From a virus, in IMG/VR virus record IMGVR_UViG_3300037847_005281, positions 5,080 through 37,757 of that record: a DNA stretch of 32,678 bases, one strand, 5' to 3'. The notes beneath the pieces were generated by a model. That model saw nothing but the letters and a program-made list of their open reading frames with translations, searched no databases and was not told the origin of the DNA. Below are positions 3,640 through 20,065 of the stretch, piece after piece. Positions within the stretch are counted from its first letter, which is position 1. Every line of letters begins with the position of its first letter. The position numbers were made by a program, and so were the translations under genes.

Positions 3640-3987
3640 ATGAAAAAAATAAGCATAATCGGACTGCTAGTAGCAGTCTTCTTTTCTGGTGCCGTAGTGG
3701 CAGAAGAAACAAACGATATCTCTTGGGCATTAACTCTTGAGAGACAAACAGAAGCCAATGCAAACACTGGCGAACTAATGGGAACTAAATCATTGGCAGG
3801 AATTGATATTTCAGCAGGTGGGTTATGGGACATTGACAAATCAGGTCAAGATTTTATTGCTCTGAACAAAACAATGTTGAACTTTAGTCATTCATTATCT
3901 GACCAAGCAACTTTGTATATAAAGAATGACTTTGATACAGAATTTGTCAGAACTGAGTCAACTGTAGGATTAAAAATTACATTTTAA
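3640..3987 (+). CDS. exported protein, outer-membrane/beta-strand type
   Basis: The ATG at 3640 follows a strong ribosome site (AAGGAGG, 7 bases upstream) and gives a 115-aa product. Residues 1-22 form a signal peptide (MKK, hydrophobic core, AVVAEE cleavage region). The mature part alternates polar and nonpolar residues and ends in phenylalanine (VGLKITF), as outer-membrane beta proteins do, but it is far too short for a full porin. An early promoter directly upstream suggests action soon after infection; alteration of the envelope or superinfection exclusion is a possibility only. No specific family recognised. Confidence 0.7.
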   Translation: MKKISIIGLLVAVFFSGAVVAEETNDISWALTLERQTEANANTGELMGTKSLAGIDISAGGLWDIDKSGQDFIALNKTMLNFSHSLSDQATLYIKNDFDTEFVRTESTVGLKITF

Positions 3988-3991
3988 TTTG

Positions 3992-4020
3992 TTGACAAAC
4001 ACGTTGCTATAGTGTATAAA
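3992..4020 (+). promoter_or_regulatory. sigma70 promoter of the tmRNA
   Basis: TTGACA at 3992-3997 and TATAAA at 4015-4020 are 17 bp apart. The -10 hexamer is also the first six bases of a late box (TATAAATA, 4015-4022), so one site could serve both host and phage-modified polymerase with almost the same start point near 4028. Confidence 0.8.
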
Positions 4021-4022
4021 TA
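4015..4022 (+). promoter_or_regulatory. T4-like late promoter box overlapping a sigma70 -10
   Basis: A perfect TATAAATA is superimposed on the sigma70 -10 element of the tmRNA gene. The overlap would allow tmRNA synthesis throughout infection. Confidence 0.55.
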
Positions 4023-4027
4023 TAGTA

Positions 4028-4310
4028 TGTTAACGTTGAAGCAACGTAGACATATACTGGACCTGGGGGCAGTACCCAGCGGCTCCACCAAAATACATTG
4101 AGTCATAGAGGTTGTAGAAGGCTTGACTATTGTTATTTAAACTCAGTGCGTTTCGGCGGGGCCGAACTAGGATCGACAGGTATGAAAGCGAAGTGGAGTT
4201 ATCCGTGGTGACCTACGTTATTCGGTCAAAAACTATAAATGCAAACGATAATTTTGCAAATGAAGATTTAGCCTTAGCGGCTTAATCATTCGGGGTTGGC
4301 AACTGACCTG
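4028..4310 (+). ncRNA. ssrA: two-piece (permuted) tmRNA
   Basis: tmRNA frees stalled ribosomes and adds a degradation tag. The gene has the alphaproteobacterial permuted order. The acceptor piece comes first and ends in CGGCTCCACCA at 4080-4090. The intervening segment is about 4091-4157. The coding piece starts with GGGGCCG at 4158. GGGGCCG pairs with CGGCTCC as a 7-bp acceptor stem with a G-U at the third pair, the alanine identity element. A T-arm (CTGGG/CCCAG) precedes the acceptor strand. The tag frame begins at GCA 4241 and stops at TAA 4283-4285, encoding ANDNFANEDLALAA (AANDNFANEDLALAA with the charged Ala). This resembles alphaproteobacterial tags and ends in the LAA signal read by ClpXP. 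Outer ends are approximate. It has its own promoter, and a ClpX gene lies about 9 kb away. Confidence 0.93.
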
Positions 4311-4337
4311 GCAACAGAACTAGTTGCACTTTTATTT
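4311..4337 (+). terminator. hairpin with T-rich tail after tmRNA
   Basis: GCAAC (4311-4315) and GTTGC (4323-4327) form a 5-bp stem with a 7-base loop, followed by ACTTTTATTT. It is a modest intrinsic terminator or processing hairpin ahead of the ferredoxin gene, whose message may come from read-through. Confidence 0.45.
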
Positions 4338-4347
4338 CGGGTGATTG

Positions 4348-4686
4348 ATGACATATGTAGTAACACAGGATTGTATCAAATGTAAATACACAGATTGTGT
4401 TGAGGTATGTCCCGTAGATTGTTTCTACGAAGGTGATAATATGCTTGTTATCAATCCAGATGAATGCATCGATTGTGGAGTATGTGAACCAGAATGTCCA
4501 GCAGATGCAATCATTCCTGATACTTCCCCAAAATTCACACAAAGACTTTACGATATCAATAAGAAATGGTCAGAAGAATGGCCTGTAATTACTGAACAAA
4601 AAGACCCACTACCAAATGCAGATGCAATGAATCCATCAAAAGGATATGCGGAAAGTAAAGAAAATTTACTAGACGAATATGATTAA
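4348..4686 (+). CDS. fdxA: 7Fe (3Fe-4S/4Fe-4S) ferredoxin, FdxA type
   Basis: A soluble electron carrier of 112 aa beginning [17 protein letters not shown]. It shows the FdxA pattern: Cys9, Cys17 and neighbours with CPVDC form one cluster site, and [12 protein letters not shown] forms the second. The C-terminal extension (about residues 60-112) is typical of bacterial FdxA. The ATG at 4348 is preferred to the TTG one codon earlier. Its stop overlaps the next gene by 8 bases, and an unknown protein, a 2OG-Fe(II) oxygenase and a methyltransferase follow in one tight operon. Phage ferredoxins are known from marine viruses. The partner is unknown; the radical SAM protein at 23223 and nearby oxygenases are candidates by inference. 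Confidence 0.93.
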
Positions 4687-6759: not shown

Positions 6760-6979
6760 ATAGCATATAAAGAGTTATAAACTTTATATTGTAGTGCATC
6801 GAAGAGGCTGTTACCAGACGGTCGAAGATGACTAGTTAGGGGTGGTACCCAGGCTCAAAGTCTAGCGACCGAGGGTCACATCGCTCTACCGAGCGGAACT
6901 AGGTTCCCTGGATTTAGAATGGTATCTGAGTCGAGGGGTTGGGGGTGAAACCAAGTCCCTCCTACTTTGCTATATTTTT
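6760..6979 (+). ncRNA. structured noncoding RNA of about 215 nt, family unassigned
   Basis: No credible reading frame covers this segment. ATAGCA (6760-6765) pairs with TGCTAT (6968-6973), closing the whole RNA. Inside are ATATAAA/TTTATAT with AGTT/AACT (6766-6789), CGGTCG (about 6819) with CGACCG (about 6866) extended by CTAG/CTAG, a GGGT/ACCC hairpin at 6840-6850, AGCGA/TCGCT, GCTC-TACC-GAGC, and a 3' arm GAGGG/CCCTC enclosing TTGG/CCAA. An ATTTTT tract follows. Start, closing helix and U-tract agree with the promoter, so the limits are fairly firm. It lacks RNase P core motifs and a tmRNA tag; 6S-like or marine environmental RNA families remain possible. There is no protein-coding gene on + downstream, so it is not a leader. 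Confidence 0.75.
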
Positions 6980-7083: not shown

Positions 7084-7171
7084 TGGCTTTAGGGGGAGGA
7101 TTCGAACCTCCACGTAACTATGTTACAACGGATAAACAGTCCGCTATGTCTACCAATTCCATCACCCTAAA
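7084..7171 (-). tRNA. class II tRNA with GUU (Asn) anticodon
   Basis: The minus strand folds into a full cloverleaf of 88 nt. The acceptor is TTTAGGG/CCCTAAA with discriminator G73 and an encoded CCA. The D-arm has GG in GAATTGGTAGA. The anticodon stem is GCGGA/TCCGT with loop CTGTTTA, hence GUU. A long variable arm GTAAC-ATA-GTTAC and T-arm GGAGG-TTCGAAT-CCTCC complete it. The body and long variable arm are those of tRNA-Leu-type (class II) molecules, while the anticodon and G73 are asparagine identity elements; bacterial tRNA-Leu normally has A73. U37 is also unusual, since position 37 is nearly always a purine. It begins 13 nt after the stop of the AsnRS-like gene, so both probably share a transcript. 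Confidence 0.9.
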
Positions 7172-7183
7172 CTAGCAAGTATA

Positions 7184-8008
7184 TTACGAATTTTTATCTA
7201 AAGCAGAAATCATTCTTGTCATACCGATTCCACCACCAACTCTTGGGAAGAAATCGAATTCTAAGAACTTTTCTAATTCTGCCTCTACTCTTTCTTTAGA
7301 GAATAGTTTATAAAGCAATTCTGAATATTCACCATTTGTGATTGTGTGAAAAGTATCACGCATCATTTCTTTATCACAAGAACGTTCCGCGGAACCTATT
7401 GTTTCCATACCTCCTAAGATAACATCTATCTTCTTACTTGTAGCACCACCTTCGTGTCTACTCATATTCCAGAACGGAGATGTCATTTCAGGAAAGTCTG
7501 TAATCATTGTAGCACCGAATTCTTCAAACATTTTAGTTTCGTGTTCGGCTTCCATTTCTGTCATTGCATCTAGACCAAAATGTTTTTGCCAGTCTGCATA
7601 TGTTCTTTCTTCTGGTTTAGGGAATTCTAAGTATTCACATAATTCATATTCCATCTTTTTCAAATCATCATATCCACCTGGAAATTCAAATTCAAACATA
7701 GGGAAGATTATATCGTGTCTACCTGGAATTGCATTTGGTTCTTGTCTATAGGACGTGGAGACACAAAAAAAGCCCTTTGCATCGGGCTTTGAGAGTAATT
7801 CGTGTTCTAACCACATTTGGCCTGTTTGGGGAAGGGGCCAGACTTGGCCTGCATAATTGTATGTTGCTACATTGAACGGATCTTCACAAGCCGCCAATAT
7901 ACTTAATCTGTTTTGAGTATGTACTTCTTCAAAACCTTTATCCAAAAAAAATGACCTTAAAAGGCCAACTGTTTTTGTAAATTTTGTAGGATTTATTAAT
8001 TGCGTCAT
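7184..8008 (-). CDS. AsnRS/AspRS-like class II synthetase catalytic core
   Basis: This 274-aa protein is a class II aminoacyl-tRNA synthetase fold of the Asp/Asn/Lys group without any anticodon-binding OB domain. Motif 2 is at about residues 84-109 (SYRQE, then GRHDIIFPMFEFEF; R88, E90, RH 97-98). The middle has IDVILGGMETIGSAERS, corresponding to the GGSQRE region of AsnRS. Motif 3 is GGGIGMTRM at 258-266, with the ATP-binding Arg265. Known stand-alone cores of this type include archaeal asparagine synthetase (AS-AR) and bacterial AsnA, which make Asn from Asp, ammonia and ATP, and other synthetase paralogues. The co-transcribed GUU tRNA makes a tRNA-linked role plausible. A minus-strand late box is 78 bases upstream of the start. 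Whether it charges tRNA, amidates Asp or modifies something else cannot be told from sequence. Confidence 0.82.
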   Translation of the reverse strand: MTQLINPTKFTKTVGLLRSFFLDKGFEEVHTQNRLSILAACEDPFNVATYNYAGQVWPLPQTGQMWLEHELLSKPDAKGFFCVSTSYRQEPNAIPGRHDIIFPMFEFEFPGGYDDLKKMEYELCEYLEFPKPEERTYADWQKHFGLDAMTEMEAEHETKMFEEFGATMITDFPEMTSPFWNMSRHEGGATSKKIDVILGGMETIGSAERSCDKEMMRDTFHTITNGEYSELLYKLFSKERVEAELEKFLEFDFFPRVGGGIGMTRMISALDKNS

Positions 8009-11573: not shown

Positions 11574-13148
11574 ATGGTATTTCCAATTATCACTTTTGTT
11601 ACGGCTATTGCCATTGCCTTTATTGCGGCTTGGTTCTCAATAATAGGTCTTATGGCGATTTTTGCCGCCTCGGCATTGCCCGTAGCATTAATGGCTGGTT
11701 CACTTGAAGTCGGTAAATTAGTTGCCGCCTCTTGGGTTTACCGTAATTGGAAGAGGGCTCCATTTTTATTAAAAACATATCTAACGATAGCAGTTGTTGT
11801 TTTAATGTTCATCACAAGTATGGGCATTTTTGGTTTCTTATCTAAAGCACACTTAGACCAAGCCGCACAGGGAGAGGCTAGTAGTGCCAAGATAGAACGT
11901 ATAATAAGTGATATCGAAAGAAACGAGAATTTAATAAAAAGAACTGAATTAAAAATTGACAAACTCGATTCTGAGTCTAACAATGAATCTAGTGATATCA
12001 ATTCTCAAATCGATGCTGAACAACAACGTATGGATAATGCATATGCTCGTATTCAGCCAGCGATTGATGAACAAATGGAAATCATTAGAAATGAGCAAAA
12101 AGGTACAGAAGACCAGGTTCAATCATATACACTTCAAATAAATCGTATCAATGAAACATTAAACAAACTTGAAACTTATACTGATGGTATAGATAACAAG
12201 GATAATGTTAAAAAACTACAGGCCCTTGTTGGTACGAAGGTAGATGGTAGATATGGTTATCGTACTGCAAATGCAGTTGAAGATTTCAGAAAAGACCAAC
12301 TAAAAGAAAAAGAAAAGTTAATTAATATTATTGAAGATATTCGTAATTCTGTAGATACAGATGTTATTGACCAAGCACGTGAAGAAATTAAAAGATTACG
12401 TACTATGGCTGACAGAGAAATACAGAATGCACAAGATAATATCAATAGATTAAGAAACTCTTTGAATGCAGTTGGAGAAATTGATAATACAGTTGAAATA
12501 GAAGAACTAACTATCAAAGTACGAAATGCTGAGGAAGAAATCGAAGTCTGGCTTGACGAAAAGTTTGAATTAGAAAGTAAAGTCAGAGAGATTGAAGCCG
12601 AAGTAGGACCAATCAAATATATTGCTGAACTGATTTATGGTGAAACCAATCCCTCTATTATAGATTCGGCAGTAAGATGGTTGATTATTGTCTTTATTTT
12701 TGTGTTTGATCCACTAGCAGTTATCTTATTACTTGCGGCCAATTACAGTTTTGTTCATAGAAACGACCATTCTGGACGACAAGCAGAGATATTCGAATCT
12801 CTTTTTTCGAAAAATGAAAAGAAACCGCTTGACAAAGAAGAAGAAATAAGCGATAATAAAGAGATTGACACGGATTCAGAGGAAGTTGAAGAATCTGATG
12901 AAGTAGTCAAAGATGAAATAGAGAAAAAGGAAGATAACGAAACTGTGGAAGTTGAAGAAACTAAATCAGAAGATCCAAGTGGTGTTCATTTAGATCCTGC
13001 AGAAGTTGACTTAAAAAATCTTATAGAGAATGCTGATGAAGAAACTCTTAAGAAAATAAAAGACGATGCAGAAAGAGAAATAAATACTAAAAAGGAAAAG
13101 AAAGGCCAAGGCTGGCTAGATGATTTAGGCAAAGGCTTTTACAAGTAA
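11574..13148 (+). CDS. membrane protein with coiled coil and peptidoglycan-binding-like segment
   Basis: A 524-aa protein with two or three hydrophobic N-terminal segments (about 1-88), a long charged, probably coiled-coil region (about 95-355), a C-terminal transmembrane segment (about 364-390) and a very acidic tail. Residues about 212-240 (VKKLQALVGTKVDGRYGYRT, continuing with AVEDFRK) match the PG_binding_1 pattern, in which a short repeat binds cell-wall peptidoglycan. This suggests an envelope protein spanning from cytoplasm to periplasm. It is under a late promoter with translation-controlling hairpin, so late production seems required. Lysis control or wall remodelling before release is possible; I do not recognise an exact family. 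Confidence 0.7.
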   Translation: MVFPIITFVTAIAIAFIAAWFSIIGLMAIFAASALPVALMAGSLEVGKLVAASWVYRNWKRAPFLLKTYLTIAVVVLMFITSMGIFGFLSKAHLDQAAQGEASSAKIERIISDIERNENLIKRTELKIDKLDSESNNESSDINSQIDAEQQRMDNAYARIQPAIDEQMEIIRNEQKGTEDQVQSYTLQINRINETLNKLETYTDGIDNKDNVKKLQALVGTKVDGRYGYRTANAVEDFRKDQLKEKEKLINIIEDIRNSVDTDVIDQAREEIKRLRTMADREIQNAQDNINRLRNSLNAVGEIDNTVEIEELTIKVRNAEEEIEVWLDEKFELESKVREIEAEVGPIKYIAELIYGETNPSIIDSAVRWLIIVFIFVFDPLAVILLLAANYSFVHRNDHSGRQAEIFESLFSKNEKKPLDKEEEISDNKEIDTDSEEVEESDEVVKDEIEKKEDNETVEVEETKSEDPSGVHLDPAEVDLKNLIENADEETLKKIKDDAEREINTKKEKKGQGWLDDLGKGFYK

Positions 13149-13168
13149 ACAGAGAAAGTAGACAAAAA

Positions 13169-14440
13169 TTGTCAGACAAAAAAGATTATCATTGTTCGTT
13201 TTGTGGAAAACACAAGAATGAAATAAAAACTTTGATTGCAGGTCCGGCTAGTTACATTTGTAACGAGTGTATAGACCTTTGTCATTCAATCGTACACGAA
13301 AGAAAAAAATCTGACAAGATAGGTAAAAATTTAGACGGCGGCATTCCTACTCCCGATGAAATCAAAGAATTTTTAGATTTACACGTGATAGGACAAGCGG
13401 AAGCAAAAGAAGTCCTGAGTGTCGCCGTTTATAATCACTATAAAAGAGTAAATTTACCAGAAGACGATAACGATATAGAATTAGAAAAATCTAATGTTAT
13501 GATGCTTGGTCCATCAGGAACAGGTAAAACATTACTAGGTAAAACAATCGCAAAATTTTTAGAAGTACCATTTGCACAAGTTGATGCAACAACATTAACT
13601 GAAAGTGGTTATGTTGGTGAAGATGTTGAAAATGTAATTCAAAGATTATTAATGAATGCAGATTTTGATATTAAGAAAGCAGAACAAGGTATTATCTATA
13701 TTGACGAAATTGATAAAAAAGCAAAGAAAGGCGAAAACGTTTCAATAACAAAAGACGTATCAGGTGAAGGTGTTCAACAAGCATTACTAAAAATTGTTGA
13801 AGGTACTGTAGTACGTGTTCCACCAGGAGGTGGTCGTAAACACCCAGGTGCTGATATGCTTGAAGTTGATACAAGTAAAATTTTGTTTATTGTAGGTGGA
13901 GCCTTTGTTGGATTAGATAACATCATTAAGAAAAGATTAAACTCAAGTGGATCAATTGGATTTGGTGCAAATGTAGTAGCACCTGAAGAAGATAAAATAC
14001 AAGTTTCAAAAGAAGTATTAGCAGAAGATGTTATTAAGTATGGTATCATACCAGAGTTTATGGGAAGATTTCCTATCTTAGTAGGAATAGATGATTTAAC
14101 AAAAGACGAATTAACAAGAATTTTAACAGAACCTAAAAATAATCTTGTTGCACAATTTAAAAAGATTTTCAAATTAGATGGCGTAGAATTGAATTTCACA
14201 AAAGACGCAATCAAAGAAATAGCAAATCAGGCAAGTGAAAACAAAACAGGAGCAAGAGGACTACGTAGTGTATTAGAAAAATCATTATTAAAAATACAAT
14301 TTACATTACCTAAGTTACGAAAGAATGCAGGTCTTCAATCTGTAGAAATAACGGCTGATTTTATTAAAAGCAACAAAGAACCAATAATGGTATTTAAGGA
14401 ACCAAAATCAACAGGGACATCAAAAAATATAAATGAATAA
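13169..14440 (+). CDS. clpX: ClpX ATPase subunit of the Clp protease
   Basis: ClpX unfolds tagged proteins and feeds them to ClpP. The 423-aa protein is full length (E. coli 424). A zinc-binding domain (Cys 9, 12, 31, 34) is followed by Walker A GPSGTGKT (114-121), pore loop GYVG (147-150), Walker B IIYIDE (175-180), RKH loop (223-225) and the ClpP-contact loop IGFGA (263-267). All functional motifs are intact, so it could dock on host ClpP. The start is TTG at 13169, with AGAGAAAG upstream; no in-frame ATG is near. It overlaps infC, which overlaps rpsU. With a phage tmRNA (tag ending LALAA) and ClpS in the same window, a dedicated substrate-selection system is likely. Confidence 0.96.
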   Translation: MSDKKDYHCSFCGKHKNEIKTLIAGPASYICNECIDLCHSIVHERKKSDKIGKNLDGGIPTPDEIKEFLDLHVIGQAEAKEVLSVAVYNHYKRVNLPEDDNDIELEKSNVMMLGPSGTGKTLLGKTIAKFLEVPFAQVDATTLTESGYVGEDVENVIQRLLMNADFDIKKAEQGIIYIDEIDKKAKKGENVSITKDVSGEGVQQALLKIVEGTVVRVPPGGGRKHPGADMLEVDTSKILFIVGGAFVGLDNIIKKRLNSSGSIGFGANVVAPEEDKIQVSKEVLAEDVIKYGIIPEFMGRFPILVGIDDLTKDELTRILTEPKNNLVAQFKKIFKLDGVELNFTKDAIKEIANQASENKTGARGLRSVLEKSLLKIQFTLPKLRKNAGLQSVEITADFIKSNKEPIMVFKEPKSTGTSKNINE

Positions 14441-14975
14441 ACGACATAGAGAAGAACGTAATAAACCTTTTGTAATTTCAAATCACAGGATACGTTCTAA
14501 CGAATTGAGAGTGATTTCAGACGAAGGCGAACAACTTGGGATTTTATCTAAAAACGAAGCCCAAAATATTGCTGATGAAAAGCAATTAGATTTAATTTTA
14601 ATCGTACCAAATGCAGAACCGCCTGTAGCAAAAATAATTAGTTTAAATAAATATACTTACGAAATCAAAAAGCGAGAAAAGGATAGAGCAAAACAGGCAA
14701 GACAGAATTCAGTAGATATTAAGGAAGTTAAGTTTAGACCTAACATAGGTGAGAATGACCTTAAGATGAAACTGAAACAATGTCAAAAGTTTATTGACAA
14801 AGGCAATAAAGTAAAAATAACTATACAAATGAGAGGCAGAGAAAATTCTAGATCCACAGATGTACTAGAAAATTTCAATTCCCAATTCTCTGAGAATTTG
14901 AGTGGTTTCAAATTCGATGCACCTCTGAAACAAACAGGGAATAGAATAATGGGTATGTTGGTAAAAGATGAATAA
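14433..14975 (+). CDS. infC: translation initiation factor IF-3
   Basis: IF-3 binds the 30S subunit, keeps it free of 50S and checks start codon pairing. The 180-aa product has both domains. The N-domain includes NHRIRSNELRVISDEGEQLG and DLILIVPNAEPPVAKI. A Lys/Arg-rich linker follows, then the C-domain with DIKEVKFRPNIGENDL and KVKITIQMRGRE, the RNA-binding core. Length equals bacterial IF-3. It overlaps clpX upstream and rpsU downstream by 8 bases each (ATGAATAA junctions), so the three are translationally coupled. Unlike most host infC genes, it is not next to rpmI/rplT. Confidence 0.96.
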   Translation: MNKRHREERNKPFVISNHRIRSNELRVISDEGEQLGILSKNEAQNIADEKQLDLILIVPNAEPPVAKIISLNKYTYEIKKREKDRAKQARQNSVDIKEVKFRPNIGENDLKMKLKQCQKFIDKGNKVKITIQMRGRENSRSTDVLENFNSQFSENLSGFKFDAPLKQTGNRIMGMLVKDE

Positions 14976-15231
14976 CGAAAGAAACAATAAAAGACGTTGG
15001 AATAGCAATAATGATTTTGGTATTCGAAAGTCTGGAATACAAGTTGAAGTAAAGAACGGTCAATTTGAACGTGCAATGCGTAAGTTCAAAAAGAAAGTAA
15101 CTGAGGCTGGTATTATACAAGAAGTCAGGGAACGTAAATTTTTTGTTAAACCAAGTGAGATTAAACGAAAGGCACGTGATGCTGGACGTAAACGTTGGTT
15201 AAGAAAACAAAAAATGGATGAATGGAAATAA
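14968..15231 (+). CDS. rpsU: ribosomal protein bS21
   Basis: bS21 sits on the 30S platform near the anti-Shine-Dalgarno and affects mRNA selection. The 87-aa protein has an extra N-terminal extension of about 25 Asn/Arg-rich residues before the conserved core VEVKNGQFERAMRKFKKKV, then GIIQEVRERKFFVKPSEIKR and the basic tail. Phage bS21 is known from pelagiphages and can enter host ribosomes. Together with IF-3 in the same operon it could bias initiation towards phage messages (inference). Confidence 0.95.
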   Translation: MNNERNNKRRWNSNNDFGIRKSGIQVEVKNGQFERAMRKFKKKVTEAGIIQEVRERKFFVKPSEIKRKARDAGRKRWLRKQKMDEWK

Positions 15232-15232
15232 T

Positions 15233-15252
15233 AAAGGGGATTTCTCCCCTTT
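15233..15252. terminator. hairpin between convergent genes
   Basis: AAAGGGGA (15233-15240) and TCCCCTTT (15245-15252) form a perfect 8-bp stem with a TTTC loop, 1 base after the rpsU stop and 9 bases from the end of the minus-strand gene at 15262. It probably terminates both. Confidence 0.75.
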
Positions 15253-15261
15253 ACTATATAA

Positions 15262-15579
15262 TTAGAATAAGTGGTCAGTAATTTCTTCTTCAAAAATTGG
15301 TTGAGCACCATTGAAAGATGCAAGTTGAGATTCAATATCTGCAACAACTGTATCTCTAGTTGATTCATCAGGATATACGAATGTCGTTACACCTTCAAAT
15401 TTGTCCTCTGTTAATGCTTCCTGAAAGTTTGATGCATCAGAAATATCAACACCAGCATTTGTTAAAGAATTTTTTAGAATTGCTACATAATCTGTGTAGT
15501 TATTCTCTGACACAATTTGGTCTACCGTATCATATTGCTTTACAATATGCGGATAGAAAACTTTAGTTATTTTAATCAT
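15262..15579 (-). CDS. hypothetical protein, 105 aa
   Basis: The ATG at 15579 (MIKITKVFYPHIVKQYDTVD) is chosen over an upstream in-frame start because TAGGAGG lies 8 bases before it. An acidic soluble protein with no recognised family. It lies alone on the minus strand between rpsU and a + gene. A minus-strand late box is 39 bases upstream. Confidence 0.72.
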   Translation of the reverse strand: MIKITKVFYPHIVKQYDTVDQIVSENNYTDYVAILKNSLTNAGVDISDASNFQEALTEDKFEGVTTFVYPDESTRDTVVADIESQLASFNGAQPIFEEEITDHLF

Positions 15580-15617
15580 TAGGTGGCCTCCTAGAATAAA
15601 TATTAATTGTGTACAAG

Positions 15618-15625
15618 TATTTATC
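15618..15625 (-). promoter_or_regulatory. T4-like late promoter box, minus strand
   Basis: GATAAATA on the minus strand, 39 bases before the start at 15579, in the gap between two divergent genes. Confidence 0.6.
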
Positions 15626-15639
15626 ACAAAGAAAAGAAA

Positions 15640-15879
15640 ATGACAATAGATTTAGATAAATTAACATTAAGAGAACTACAAAAAGAGAGTACTAGAGCCT
15701 TATTAACTATGGACGGTACTAGTCACGGTATTTCTCAATTCAATAAAAAAGCACATCATAATAGTCAACTTTGGTATAAGGCTGTTTTGGAACATTATAT
15801 CAAAGAATACGGCGGATTACCAAGAGATATAGGACCTGCAAAAGATATTGTTTTAATGAGTGAAATGATTGGCTGTTAA
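15640..15879 (+). CDS. hypothetical protein, 79 aa
   Basis: The ATG at 15640 (MTIDLDKLTLRELQKES) is preferred to an upstream in-frame start at 15607, which would overlap the minus-strand promoter. A soluble helical protein with several histidines and a terminal cysteine. A weak late-like box (AATAAATA, 15595-15602) could drive it. No family recognised. Confidence 0.6.
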   Translation: MTIDLDKLTLRELQKESTRALLTMDGTSHGISQFNKKAHHNSQLWYKAVLEHYIKEYGGLPRDIGPAKDIVLMSEMIGC

Positions 15880-15881
15880 AT

Positions 15882-15889
15882 GATAAATA
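15882..15889 (+). promoter_or_regulatory. T4-like late promoter box before the riboswitch
   Basis: GATAAATA; the predicted start near 15896 coincides with the first paired base of the glutamine-II-type aptamer. Confidence 0.6.
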
Positions 15890-15895
15890 TATGTA

Positions 15896-15967
15896 CGTTC
15901 AGGCAATATAGCCCGGAAGTAGCATAATGTGAAGGAACGCACTTAAACCTTTAACCGGGAGAGTGCA
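15896..15967 (+). promoter_or_regulatory. glutamine-II (downstream-peptide) riboswitch
   Basis: The element has the conserved core of glutamine riboswitches: CGTTCA at 15896, GGAAGTAG at 15915-15922, and GAAGGAACGC at 15931-15940. CGTTC pairs with GAACG (P1), GGC with GCC (15902-15913), and CCCGG (15912-15916) with CCGGG (15955-15959) as a pseudoknot crossing P1. CCGGGAGAG includes the ribosome site of the 32-aa ORF at 15968, so glutamine binding would hide it. GCACT (15939-15943) with AGTGC (15962-15966) gives a possible alternative fold. The pattern and the small ORF behind it match the class found in marine cyanobacteria, cyanophages and ocean metagenomes. Confidence 0.85.
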
Positions 15968-16066
15968 ATGGATTTATTCGCTATATGGTGCTTTAAACGT
16001 GAGATTTCACTACGAAAAATAAAGAAAATTGAACTTTTATTAAGAAAAAGACGTATTTGCACTTGA
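15968..16066 (+). CDS. glutamine-riboswitch downstream peptide, 32 aa
   Basis: The ORF opens 8 bases after the riboswitch's CCGGG and encodes a 32-aa peptide: a hydrophobic N-terminus (MDLFAIWCF) followed by a very basic helix with ten Lys/Arg. Downstream peptides of glutamine-II riboswitches are of this size. Some basic small proteins under glutamine riboswitches in cyanobacteria inhibit glutamine synthetase; a similar role here is only a hypothesis. Its last bases overlap the -35 of the hsp20 promoter. Confidence 0.72.
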   Translation: MDLFAIWCFKREISLRKIKKIELLLRKRRICT

Positions 16067-16090
16067 CATTTCCAAAAAAATGATTATATT
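16063..16090 (+). promoter_or_regulatory. sigma70 promoter for hsp20
   Basis: TTGACA at 16063-16068 and TATATT at 16085-16090, 16 bp apart, about 90 bases before the hsp20 start. Confidence 0.75.
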
Positions 16091-16112
16091 AATAGTATAT
16101 GCATAATTTATG

Positions 16113-16120
16113 CATAAATA
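16113..16120 (+). promoter_or_regulatory. T4-like late promoter box for hsp20
   Basis: CATAAATA, 63 bases before hsp20, downstream of the sigma70 promoter, giving early and late expression. Confidence 0.55.
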
Positions 16121-16182
16121 ACAGTGTAGATTGCTTTGATAGGGTCTACATAAATTAACTTGCTTAAAAAAGGAGTATTATT

Positions 16183-16626
16183 ATGACAAGAAACGCACTA
16201 TCAATTTTTAACCAGTTACGTCCTGTAACTGTAGGCTTTGACAATATGTTTGACCATTTCGAATCTATGTTCGATGGAGACGTATTCTCAGTACCACAAG
16301 TAAACTTTCCACCATACAACATCGTAAAGACTGGTGATTTTACTTATGATGTAGAACTAGCACTTGCTGGTTACTCAAAAGATGACATTACAGTAGATTA
16401 TGCTGATAATGTACTAACTGTAAAATCAATCAAGAAATCTGATGAAAGTAAAGATGAAGACGGTGTTCTTCATAGAGGTATCGCAAAAAGATATTTCTCA
16501 AAAGCATTTACTATCGCAGATGATGTTGAAGTAAGAGGTGCAGAGTTGAAAGATGGACTTCTAAAAATCTCTATGGAAAGAATTGTTCCAGAGGGTAAAA
16601 AGCCTAGAAGTATCGACATCAAATAA
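16183..16626 (+). CDS. Hsp20/alpha-crystallin small heat shock protein
   Basis: Small heat shock proteins hold unfolding proteins for later refolding. The 147-aa protein is IbpA-like: N-terminal MTRNALSIFNQLRPVTVGFD, an alpha-crystallin domain from about residue 43 (PPYNIVKTGDFTYDVELALAGY, DDITVDYADNVLTVK) and a C-terminal SIDIK with the I-x-I motif used in oligomerisation. Full length. A strong AAGGAG ribosome site precedes it, with dual sigma70 and late promoters, and an intrinsic terminator follows. Hsp20 genes are frequent in T4-like marine phages and may help head or tail assembly. Confidence 0.94.
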   Translation: MTRNALSIFNQLRPVTVGFDNMFDHFESMFDGDVFSVPQVNFPPYNIVKTGDFTYDVELALAGYSKDDITVDYADNVLTVKSIKKSDESKDEDGVLHRGIAKRYFSKAFTIADDVEVRGAELKDGLLKISMERIVPEGKKPRSIDIK

Positions 16627-16629
16627 TAC

Positions 16630-16658
16630 TTGAAACCTAATCAGGTTTCTGATATAAT
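16630..16658 (+). promoter_or_regulatory. possible sigma70 promoter for clpS overlapping a hairpin
   Basis: TTGAAA (16630) and TATAAT (16653-16658) are 17 bp apart. The spacer contains a hairpin GAAACCT/AGGTTTC (16632-16649). Its start near 16665 would fall inside the left arm of the following terminator, so only upstream transcripts would terminate. Confidence 0.45.
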
Positions 16659-16661
16659 ATT

Positions 16662-16691
16662 AGGAGAGGCGAGAAATTGCCTCTCCTTTTT
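16662..16691 (+). terminator. intrinsic terminator after hsp20
   Basis: AGGAGAGGC (16662-16670) and GCCTCTCCT (16679-16687) form a perfect 9-bp stem with an 8-base loop, followed by a T run. This is the clearest rho-independent terminator in the window. Confidence 0.92.
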
Positions 16692-16704
16692 ATCTTTAAA
16701 AACA

Positions 16705-16712
16705 GATAAATA
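16705..16712 (+). promoter_or_regulatory. T4-like late promoter box for clpS
   Basis: GATAAATA, 27 bases before the clpS start and downstream of the hsp20 terminator. Confidence 0.6.
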
Positions 16713-16738
16713 TTAGTATACAGTGGGAAGTAAGTATT

Positions 16739-17053
16739 ATGCAAACACAAAATGAAAGTGTAACATCAGTTGATACGGCATCGACTATAAAAATAGCAAC
16801 ACCAAAAAGATATTATGTTGTTATGCATAACGATGACCAAACACCTATTGACTTTGTTGTTAAAGTACTTATGGAACTGTATCATCACGACCAACAAACA
16901 TCAGCCGACTTAGCAAATAAAATTCATATAGACCAAAAAGCAATAGTCGGAATGTATAATTTAGAAATAGCGGAACAAAAGGTGGAAGAGACTCACGGGA
17001 CAAGCAGGGCACATGGTTACCCATTAACGGTAACATTGGAACAGGCAGATTAA
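16739..17053 (+). CDS. clpS: ClpS adaptor protein
   Basis: ClpS binds N-degron substrates and delivers them to ClpAP (or ClpCP). The 104-aa protein has a flexible N-terminal extension (about 20 residues) and the core RYYVVMHNDDQTPIDFVVKV, containing the NDD-x-T-P-[IM] substrate pocket, then KAIVGMYNLEIAEQKVEE and PLTVTLEQ. No ClpA is in the window, so it would act through a host ClpA. Binding host ClpA could also redirect that protease. A ribosome-site-like GGGAAG and late box precede it. Its coupling with phage ClpX and tmRNA suggests control over both degradation routes. Confidence 0.92.
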   Translation: MQTQNESVTSVDTASTIKIATPKRYYVVMHNDDQTPIDFVVKVLMELYHHDQQTSADLANKIHIDQKAIVGMYNLEIAEQKVEETHGTSRAHGYPLTVTLEQAD

Positions 17054-17876: not shown

Positions 17877-18629
17877 ATGACAAATCGATCCCAACAAGGG
17901 TATCGAAAATACCAGAACTGGAATGGTTCACGTTGGTTATATACACGTGAACAATCACAATGGCATTTTGATACTAAATCAGATACACAAGACTTTCAGC
18001 CTATTTGCCAATTTATTGGTGATTGGGATTTTTCTGTACAGAAAGCAATGAAACGTGTTGTTGATTGTACTTGGGCAAATCGTAATTATTTCTCAAAAAA
18101 TCCAGATGAAAATAAGAAACCGATGTATTCTGCAAGTGCGGAAGAAATGGACTTGTTTAGAGCGGGTGCAAATCCAAAACAAGAAATATTTCAACGTGCG
18201 GTAGCAGACGATATTCCCATATTTCAAAAAATTGCTAGTCACTTAAAACTAGAAGATCCATCAGTTAAATTTCATAATCAAAGACCTGGACAAACTCTTA
18301 ATTTACATATTGATAATTTTGCTGGTCGTAAAGAACGTGGCAATAGTTTCAAAGAAATAAAAGTAGACAGAAATCCTGACGCAATGAGAAGATTTGTTGT
18401 GATGCTAGATGATTGGAAACACGGACAAGTGTTTATGTTAGGAAATCAAGTTTGGCATCGTTGGAACAAAGGCGATTGTATAACTTGGAACTGGCGTGAT
18501 ATTCCACACTGTACAAGTAATATGGGTTGGGATAATAGACCTATGTTACAGATAACAGGTTGGACTACAAAAGAAACTATTGAAGTTGTAAACAACGGCA
18601 GTTTTGAAAAGAAAGTAGAGATATGTTAG
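17877..18629 (+). CDS. 2OG-Fe(II) oxygenase-like protein A
   Basis: The 250-aa protein carries the 2-oxoglutarate oxygenase signature: metal ligands H144-x-D146 (LHIDNF), distal His211 (DIPHCTSN) and R221 ten residues later (DNRPMLQ) for binding 2-oxoglutarate. It is clearly paralogous to protein B at 20065-20781; both share DNFAGRKERGNSF, MLDDWKHGQVF and NMGW-x-x-RPMLQ. Its stop overlaps the tctA start by 7 bases, so oxygenase and transporter are translationally coupled. The pair flanking a permease is striking. Substrate unknown; 2-oxoglutarate use is inferred from the motif. Confidence 0.8.
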   Translation: MTNRSQQGYRKYQNWNGSRWLYTREQSQWHFDTKSDTQDFQPICQFIGDWDFSVQKAMKRVVDCTWANRNYFSKNPDENKKPMYSASAEEMDLFRAGANPKQEIFQRAVADDIPIFQKIASHLKLEDPSVKFHNQRPGQTLNLHIDNFAGRKERGNSFKEIKVDRNPDAMRRFVVMLDDWKHGQVFMLGNQVWHRWNKGDCITWNWRDIPHCTSNMGWDNRPMLQITGWTTKETIEVVNNGSFEKKVEIC

Positions 18630-20065
18630 AACAAATTTTAGTACTATTAGCAGGTACATTTTATGGTCTCGTTGTAGGTATTATTCCAAGTGCAGGTGCA
18701 ACAACAGGATTAGTTGCTTTGTTTTCTTTTATTGGATATTTTTCAGGAGACCCATATTTAGGAGTAATATTCTGTATGGCAGTTGTTGCCGCCAGTACAA
18801 CTGGTGATACATTTACTGGTGTACTATTAGGAATACCAGGAGCAAATTCAGCCGCGGCTACTATGGTAGACGGATACCCATTAGCAAAACAAGGTAAGGC
18901 AACTTATGCCATTACGGCGGCAGTTACAACATCAACAGTAAATGGATTAATTTGGGGTACATTGACTTTTGGATTATTGCCCTGGTACATACAATTAATG
19001 ATGATATTTGGTATACCTGAATTGTGGGCATTCACAATGTTGGCACTTGCTTGTGTTGGATTTATATCAAGCAAATGGTGGGTAAGAAGTTTAATCGCTA
19101 TTGTAATAGGTTTCTGTTTAGGATATATTGGTACAGATCCATATACAAACGCAGATAGATGGACATTAGGTTGGGCATACTTAGGTGATGGATTACAACT
19201 TATGCCAGTAGTTGCAGGTTTATTTGCTTTTCCAGAAATTATTGCAGGCTTAAGAAGAAGTGATAAAATTTCTGCGGTACCAATGGACAACTTATTTCAA
19301 CAAACAGTTGATGGTGCAAAAGCAACTTGGAAACATAAATGGGACGCATTACGAGGTGGGGCTATAGGAGCATTTATTGGTTTACTTCCTGGCTTAGGTG
19401 GAGCAATGAGTGATTGGTTAGCATATGGTTCTACAGTAGCCGCCCATCCAAATGATAAGTTTGGTAATGGTAACATCAAAGGTGTTATTGGACCAGAAGG
19501 ATCTAATAATGCACAAAAGGCTACATCTATGATACCAACTGTTTTATTCGGTATACCAGGTGCAAGTTTTGCCGCGGTGTTGATGGGCTTGTTTATGTAT
19601 CTTGATTTTGAATTAGGTACACCAGACTTAGCATATGATACAAAATTCTTTGATAGTTTGTTTTATGGATTTATGTGGGCAACTGTACTTTGTGGAATTT
19701 TATGCTTGATTTTTACTAGATATATTGCTATGATAAGTTATGTACCTTACAAATATTATTTTCCGATTCTTGTAGCATTTATTATTTGGGCTTGTGTTCA
19801 ATATACAGGTGGTTGGGAAGATTACGCAGTATTGGCAGGTATGACAGTATTGGGACTTATTTGTAGAAAATGGAAATTTAGTAGACCAGCAATGTTAATG
19901 GGCTTCATTCTTTCAGATAGAATTGAAGGCTTATCAATACAAATGTTAAACTTATATGGTTTTGACAAATTAATGGATAGACCGATATTTTTAGGTTTAA
20001 TGGGATTAATAGTAATCGTTTTTATATGGGGAATATTTAGACGAGGAAAATTGGAGTATGCATAA
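18623..20065 (+). CDS. tctA: TctA-like permease of a tripartite tricarboxylate transporter
   Basis: TctA is the large membrane subunit of TTT transporters, which import citrate and other carboxylates with a periplasmic binding protein. The 480-aa protein is full length with about 11-12 hydrophobic segments. It has both family repeats: GLVVGIIPSAGATTGLVALF near the N-terminus and FIGLLPGLGGAMSDWLAYG near residue 250, plus GVIGPEGSNNAQKATSMIPT and LFGIPGASFAAVLMG. It is coupled to oxygenase A upstream and B downstream (TAATG). A TctC-like binding protein follows B. No standard TctB of about 150 aa is seen; the 76-aa membrane protein at 21835 is the nearest candidate. Confidence 0.92.
   Translation: MLEQILVLLAGTFYGLVVGIIPSAGATTGLVALFSFIGYFSGDPYLGVIFCMAVVAASTTGDTFTGVLLGIPGANSAAATMVDGYPLAKQGKATYAITAAVTTSTVNGLIWGTLTFGLLPWYIQLMMIFGIPELWAFTMLALACVGFISSKWWVRSLIAIVIGFCLGYIGTDPYTNADRWTLGWAYLGDGLQLMPVVAGLFAFPEIIAGLRRSDKISAVPMDNLFQQTVDGAKATWKHKWDALRGGAIGAFIGLLPGLGGAMSDWLAYGSTVAAHPNDKFGNGNIKGVIGPEGSNNAQKATSMIPTVLFGIPGASFAAVLMGLFMYLDFELGTPDLAYDTKFFDSLFYGFMWATVLCGILCLIFTRYIAMISYVPYKYYFPILVAFIIWACVQYTGGWEDYAVLAGMTVLGLICRKWKFSRPAMLMGFILSDRIEGLSIQMLNLYGFDKLMDRPIFLGLMGLIVIVFIWGIFRRGKLEYA

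Follow-up and report, generated by a model that had tools for sequence, protein, structure and literature searches.

The stretch of viral DNA analysed here (the window; 32,678 nucleotides, positions 5080-37757 of a 37,757-base IMG/VR virus record) carries a glutamine-riboswitch aptamer directly before a short open reading frame (ORF) for a basic peptide. A preliminary description of the sequence had recognised this arrangement in a phage, and it was right to do so (RF01739, 44.6 bits; ORF, 15968-16066). The features at and around the locus, in window coordinates, are as follows.

15852..16060, + strand: cassette (late box, riboswitch, and the greater part of the ORF), missing in syntenic relatives
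15882..15889, + strand: T4-type late-promoter-like box GATAAATA, 6 nt upstream of the aptamer
15894..15943, + strand: glutamine-I (glnA-type) riboswitch aptamer, RF01739 (44.6 bits; gathering score, 35; E value, 9.2e-7)
15896-15900 with 15935-15939, + strand: P1, enclosing P2 and P3 (Rfam alignment versus sequence)
15902-15904 (GGC) with 15911-15913 (GCC), + strand: P2, inside P1 (Rfam alignment versus sequence)
15915-15916, + strand: equivalents of G22/G23 (residue numbers after PMC5393176 and PMC6698751)
15922-15924 (GCA) with 15928-15930 (UGU), + strand: P3, inside P1 (Rfam alignment versus sequence)
15939-15944 (GCACUU) with 15961-15966 (GAGUGC), + strand: outer arm of the expression-platform hairpin, including G59 and C60
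15948-15950 (CCU) with 15957-15959 (GGG), + strand: inner pairing of the hairpin, covering the Shine-Dalgarno sequence
15957..15961, + strand: Shine-Dalgarno sequence GGGAG, within the hairpin and 6 nt upstream of the ATG (sequence and fold)
15968..16066, + strand: 32-aa basic microprotein MDLFAIWCFKREISLRKIKKIELLLRKRRICT, W/Y-C family (ORF call)
16063..16090, + strand: sigma70-like promoter TTGACA-16-TATATT for hsp20 (11/12 consensus positions)
16113-16120, + strand: late box CATAAATA before hsp20
16183-16626, + strand: hsp20, 117 nt downstream of the 32-aa ORF, same strand

The late box, riboswitch, and ORF behave as a portable cassette that is missing from near relatives. In the relative L007, the alignment covers 13050-15851 and 16061-16628, two blocks separated by 28 nt, and L009, L010, L011, and L012 likewise align on both sides of the cassette, with 24 nt at 15821/16027.

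The window also holds a permuted alpha-type tmRNA (3973-4376; tag ANDNFANEDLALAA), a manA RNA (6766-6971; 64.5 bits) that directly follows an FkbM-type methyltransferase ORF, and a tRNA-Asn adjoining a 274-aa class-II aminoacyl-tRNA-synthetase-like ORF on the minus strand (7084-8008). Genes for translation and proteolysis (ClpX-like AAA with a zinc finger, IF-3, Hsp20, and ClpS) form a run over 13169-17053, and a TctA tricarboxylate-transporter gene lies at 18623-20065; for TctA, remote matches only were found, in 7 phage records, and an exact-peptide search of genome contigs found no cellular relative. An alphaproteobacterial host, as proposed earlier, is plausible (here of SAR11 type), given the alpha-type tmRNA and an hsp20 beside the cassette whose closest relative is that of Pelagibacter phage Mosig (73% identity).

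Aptamer class

The element at 15894-15943 is a real glutamine-I aptamer. The preliminary description had placed it in the glutamine-II class, which is wrong: RF01739, above its cutoff, was the only Rfam family with a match at E ≤ 5 within 15860-16170, whereas a covariance search with the glutamine-II model RF01704 was empty at E ≤ 5 in that interval and at E ≤ 10 over the whole record. Glutamine-II membership was therefore rejected, the pseudoknot claimed with it also being at chance level (see below). When run on 14 control genomes, RF01739 matched in Synechococcus elongatus only. The motifs CGTTCA (15896-15901), GGAAGTAG (15915-15922), and GAAGGAACGC (15931-15940), which had been read as a glutamine-II core, are all in the sequence and belong to glutamine-I.

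The three-way junction of P1, P2, and P3 is present together with a core of residues equivalent to C1, G22, G23, C58, G59 (15939), and C60 (15940). Glutamine-I is described as a three-way junction without a pseudoknot and glutamine-II as having one, and in the bound glutamine-I aptamer the ligand touches the G59:C1 pair, G22, and C58 (PMC6698751). G22 and G23 are reported as disordered in the free aptamer and ordered, with a G23-C60 pair, when glutamine is bound (PMC5393176).

Expression platform

A pattern scan of viral sequences supplied relatives of the aptamer (at least 121 read, the sample being whichever matches came first). Among the approximately 121 read first, 8 had no ORF under an ATG-only rule, mostly at contig ends, and 117 units among the matches listed formed the set for platform covariation.

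The structure conserved over the ribosome site is a hairpin (15939-15966), other than the CCCGG/CCGGG pseudoknot of the preliminary description. Its energy, computed on the leader of a close relative (L002) that is identical to that of the window, is −9.9 kcal/mol, against −3.0 kcal/mol without G59 and C60 and −1.6 kcal/mol without A61 as well. Among the units listed, 79 of the 89 unique platforms have C60 paired (shuffled mean, 37.4; maximum, 46), and the mean platform energy is −7.8 kcal/mol versus −2.4 kcal/mol for shuffled sequences. Across the 117 listed units, the arms covary beyond 2000/2000 permutations (mean, 4.93 pairs versus 4.06; sd, 0.09), with examples such as GCACU/AGUGC, GCACC/GGGUG, GCAUCU/AGAUG, and GCAAUC/GAUUG. 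The unconstrained minimum free energy of the leader is no lower than that of shuffles (z, −0.8).

CCCGG and CCGGG are complementary in the window, where pairing is possible. Full 5/5 pairing nevertheless occurs in 7 of the 117 listed relatives versus a mean of 5.1 with permuted leaders, and CCGGG is not kept in the pre-Shine-Dalgarno sequences of relatives; the pseudoknot was rejected as a chance-level match.

Late promoter

Of 96 nonredundant listed units, 59 have the motif [AC]TAAATA at most 25 nt before the aptamer (dinucleotide-shuffled mean, 2.4; maximum, 7) and 37 lack it; in the next 25 nt further out it occurs in 3/96. The modal gap between box and aptamer is 6 nt, the same as in the window. 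Over the whole window, ATAAATA occurs 21 times on the plus strand versus 13.3 expected (sd, 3.3), a modest excess on the coding-rich strand, and 4 times on the minus strand versus 8.5 expected. At the usual distance from a late box to the start, transcription presumably begins at about 15895, and GATAAATA is a late box near TATAAATA just upstream of this expected start, as for a T4-type late gene. With the box at a fixed 6-nt spacing, the riboswitch transcript probably starts at the aptamer and would be made late in infection. The methods of the paper on phage Melnitz give the T4-like late box as TATAAAT (PMC9004378).

Microprotein family

The peptides of the viral units and their relatives fell into approximately 21 clusters among the units listed, the largest of which holds the window peptide. 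This W/Y-C family has at least 34 nonredundant members (28 to 48 aa, positively charged overall, [WY]C close to the N terminus), and Cys8 is invariant in 23/23 aligned members. The W/Y-C ORF is under purifying selection (pN/pS, 0.37 over 15 disjoint pairs; p, 7e-17); in other peptide clusters pN/pS is 0.17 to 0.43.

When peptide sequence alone served as the query, 34 viral loci were recovered, at least 4 of them on contigs that had supplied query peptides, and an aptamer lies directly upstream in 34/34. Thirteen of these aptamers carry GGAAGTAG and 21 carry GGGAGTAG, the latter recognised by eye because the strict DNA pattern could not find them. The core of those 21 (L207-L219, L223, L224, and L226-L231; approximately 100 nt upstream of the peptide) reads GGGAGUAG in place of GGAAGUAG. 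RF01739 called the variant-core loci L207 and L231, and L214 fell under the cutoff; an altered ligand or affinity is possible for the variant core. Downstream of W/Y-C members, the next genes fall into 10 clusters over 22 units with a called gene (31 examined), so it is the microprotein, not the next gene, that constantly accompanies the switch.

AlphaFold2 modelled the window peptide as one helix (pLDDT, 86), and an amphipathic character of this helix was unsupported (moment z, −0.9 for the window peptide; mean, −0.5 over 23 members). The window peptide had no match in Pfam, PHROGs, or PDB; neither it nor the 23 family members matched Pfam including DUF4278 (PF14105), and similarity of the W/Y-C peptide to known inhibitors was not found with Pfam, PDB, alignment z-scores, or hhalign.

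Copies in bacterial genomes

The aptamer pattern in bacterial genomes gave at least 120 stretches, of which 80 loci were listed (whichever came first), mostly from marine Alphaproteobacteria and SAR86 with some cyanobacteria. Beyond cyanobacteria, glutamine-I riboswitches occur in marine Alpha- and Gammaproteobacteria as well as in their phages. Using our own signatures, the genes after 85 listed cellular units were called as amtB (20), glnA (10), GS-II (2), gltD (1), and a circularly permuted ATP-grasp gene (15; Pfam for one); 6 units had no called ORF, 10 were of other kinds, and the rest include microproteins. Labels such as IF-like (applied by motif to the cyanobacterial ORFs L261 and L266) and YRG are motif names of our own; DUF4278-like YRG peptides also occur in other phage units of the viral scan. 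W/Y-C peptides stand behind the aptamer in the cellular loci L264, L310, and L390, a GTSGY peptide does so on a Pelagibacteraceae chromosome (L282), and a FFPYYL peptide does so on a 480-kb SAR86 contig (L300). At L390, in a cellular genome, two aptamers precede a single 72-aa ORF in which a tandemly duplicated Y-C microprotein is fused; it adjoins an ORF that we read as CobW-like.

A C60 hairpin ending at most 12 nt from the start codon is present in 17/18 microprotein units, including cyanobacterial IF-like and DUF4278-type ORFs, and in 0/43 nitrogen-assimilation units (61 nonredundant listed units; Fisher p, 3e-14, kinship ignored), in a comparison where nitrogen-gene leaders are longer and the ORF caller favoured short leaders with a Shine-Dalgarno sequence. 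Among the listed phage platforms, 77/89 have such a hairpin. Tandem glutamine-I aptamers were seen in 54/85 listed units (glnA/amtB leaders, L239-L318), and these tandem leaders have a different common downstream element (GCGGAUCUUA..UCCAUAGCUAAGCAUGA).

The aptamer was found in 39/80 genomes of the order of L256 (at most 8 copies each), 2/100 genomes of the order of L264, and 2/197 genomes of the order holding the Pelagibacteraceae genome. The last figure implies that most SAR11 hosts are without it, so a SAR11 phage would bring its own sensor.

Copies in cultured phages

Pelagibacter phage Mosig (MT647606.1) has an RF01739 aptamer at 92197-92250 on the minus strand, with a CATAAATA late box before it and the 51-aa hypothetical protein Mosig_00116 (RPR family) after it. 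Phage Melnitz (MZ577097.1) has an aptamer (L201, 1782-1830) 3′ of a tmRNA match that ends at 1774 and before an unannotated 32-aa ORF, MTLYQQWCYLKAQKEYRRRQKILMYFRIRLKG, that is a member of the W/Y-C family of the window. The Melnitz paper puts the tmRNA under riboswitch control (PMC9004378); with the aptamer 3′ of the tmRNA and 5′ of the ORF, the microprotein ORF would fit better as the target. HTVC008M and HTVC011P, which encode GTSGY-like ORFs, had no RF01739 match, and a pelagimyophage survey with Riboswitch Scanner is reported to have found no riboswitches (PMC7029224).

Switching mechanism and role of the microprotein

We propose that the mRNA is started by a T4-type late promoter and begins with the glutamine-I aptamer. 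When glutamine is absent, the segment immediately 3′ of the aptamer (G59-C60-A61 onward) would pair with bases before the start codon and hide the Shine-Dalgarno sequence; with glutamine bound, C60 would pair with G23, G59 would close P1, the base of the hairpin would be lost, and the 32-aa basic helical microprotein would be translated. Because the hairpin uses C60 (and G59), which the bound aptamer needs, glutamine binding and burial of the Shine-Dalgarno sequence should be mutually exclusive, which predicts an ON switch. Both glutamine riboswitch classes are reviewed as activating expression, including the tested gifB/IF17 (PMC6316151), and together with the competition for C60 this predicts that the peptide is made at high glutamine; the opposite direction given in the preliminary description, with the peptide made at low glutamine, is probably wrong.

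In whole-leader ensembles with P1 forced and C60/A61 blocked, mean Shine-Dalgarno accessibility went from 0.36 to 0.39 (of 102 leaders, 47 rose and 22 fell; window, 0.34 to 0.36), a change so small that the direction is one we infer. We consider it likely that this copy binds glutamine and acts as a translational ON switch, so that a late microprotein is made when glutamine is plentiful, and that the whole unit is a portable cassette.

As to what the microprotein does, a brake on nitrogen assimilation is our leading guess: by analogy, it may damp assimilation in the host as host microproteins under the same kind of switch may, a guess to which we give somewhat less than even weight. A transcriptome of infection by two pelagiphages reports host glnA, gltB, gltD, and amt as raised (PMC12753301). 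The wider reading, that ocean phages use interchangeable cassettes of late promoter, glutamine-I ON switch, and basic microprotein, related to host units, to slow host nitrogen assimilation, or some other step linked to glutamine, once glutamine triggers them, is more doubtful; if true, it would describe a proteobacterial counterpart of the cyanobacterial gif system, with several unrelated microprotein families taken over by phages.

The preliminary description named host glutamine synthetase and the PII protein as candidate targets; support for glutamine synthetase is weak. The peptide could be an IF7/IF17-like inactivating factor of that enzyme which stops host glutamine synthesis at abundance, being small and basic, sharing its platform type with the IF-like cyanobacterial ORFs L261 and L266, and belonging to a branch with z of approximately 2 versus IF-like ORFs for 8/23 members; we judge this unlikely, since the family mean z in this comparison with two IF-like sequences is 0.86 only, the profile-profile (hhalign) probability is 1%, and Pfam and PDB gave no match. 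By the first two measures, homology to the cyanobacterial IF-like ORFs was not found. The regulatory logic would be the same as for gifB/IF17 (PMC6316151), but Melnitz has a family member, and both this phage and its OM43 host are stated to be without glutamine synthetase, which argues against that target for the W/Y-C family (PMC9004378).

Less probable again is an OFF switch built on the same glutamine-I aptamer, with glutamine repressing the peptide, which would then be produced under glutamine scarcity. Whole-leader folding favours neither direction clearly, and host glnA and amtB carry the same aptamer, where repression by glutamine would make sense. Yet those nitrogen-assimilation genes have another platform, with this hairpin in none of the 43 units; both the conserved hairpin and the bound aptamer use C60, the occluding CCCGG/CCGGG pseudoknot is not conserved, and the reported activation by both classes (PMC6316151) points the same way.

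Control of hsp20, with the 32-aa ORF as a mere leader or translational coupler, would fit the position of that gene 117 nt downstream on the same strand, but is very improbable and was rejected: hsp20 has promoter-like boxes of its own, which relatives lacking the cassette still possess (L007 retains the TTGACA stretch), the aptamer is present in 1/24 hsp20-bearing relative records searched and missing in the other 23, the next genes differ across the peptide family, and purifying selection acts on the peptide itself. That the aptamer is decayed or fortuitous and the ORF a chance one is scarcely credible: 44.6 bits is below the scores of many relatives and the exact copy is common to one close relative only (L002), but the core bases named in PMC5393176 and PMC6698751 are all intact, and between the window and L002 the aptamer and platform are identical while the ORF has 2 synonymous changes and 1 nonsynonymous change across 27 codons.

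The predicted glutamine-ON cassette stands as the preferred reading. Riboswitches in phages are said to be rare, and their targets are mostly unassigned; here, marine phages carry one class repeatedly and in a constant layout (late box, aptamer, Shine-Dalgarno hairpin, and microprotein), which makes the target explicit and testable. The class proposed earlier for the element is corrected, as is, by what we infer, its direction, and the published Melnitz switch would move from the tmRNA to an overlooked microprotein. Presence or absence of the C60 hairpin gives a simple sequence rule that separates microproteins from nitrogen-assimilation genes under the same aptamer, and a cultured system is at hand in Mosig on Pelagibacter HTCC1062. 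A search of open-licence papers gave no account of these microprotein families or of an arrangement with the late promoter. The range of glutamine-I riboswitches is extended well beyond cyanobacteria, to which a review restricts glutamine riboswitches (PMC6316151).

Comparison with known systems

Glutamine-II (Downstream-peptide) elements resemble the window in having a short ORF right after a glutamine aptamer, and their ligand pocket is described as nearly the same as that of glutamine-I (PMC6698751); the window differs in having no RF01704 match. With IF7/IF17 and DUF4278 proteins, the microprotein has in common that it is small, basic, and under a glutamine switch, whereas its family has no detectable homology to the IF-like ORFs or DUF4278. 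Like glutamine-I riboswitches (RF01739), the window has P1, P2, P3, and the conserved GGAAGUAG/GAAGGAACGC core, and like the gifB leader it has a translational platform before a small basic protein (gifB/IF17, PMC6316151). It differs from the cyanobacterial copies in being phage borne, with a T4-type late box at fixed spacing in front, and from gifB in preceding a microprotein family that neither Pfam nor PHROGs names. Melnitz and Mosig carry the same aptamer class as the window. For Melnitz the published target is the tmRNA (PMC9004378), but its aptamer, like that of the window, is followed by a 32-aa W/Y-C ORF; in Mosig the ORF after the aptamer encodes a 51-aa hypothetical protein of the RPR family, and a late box is present in both Mosig and the window.
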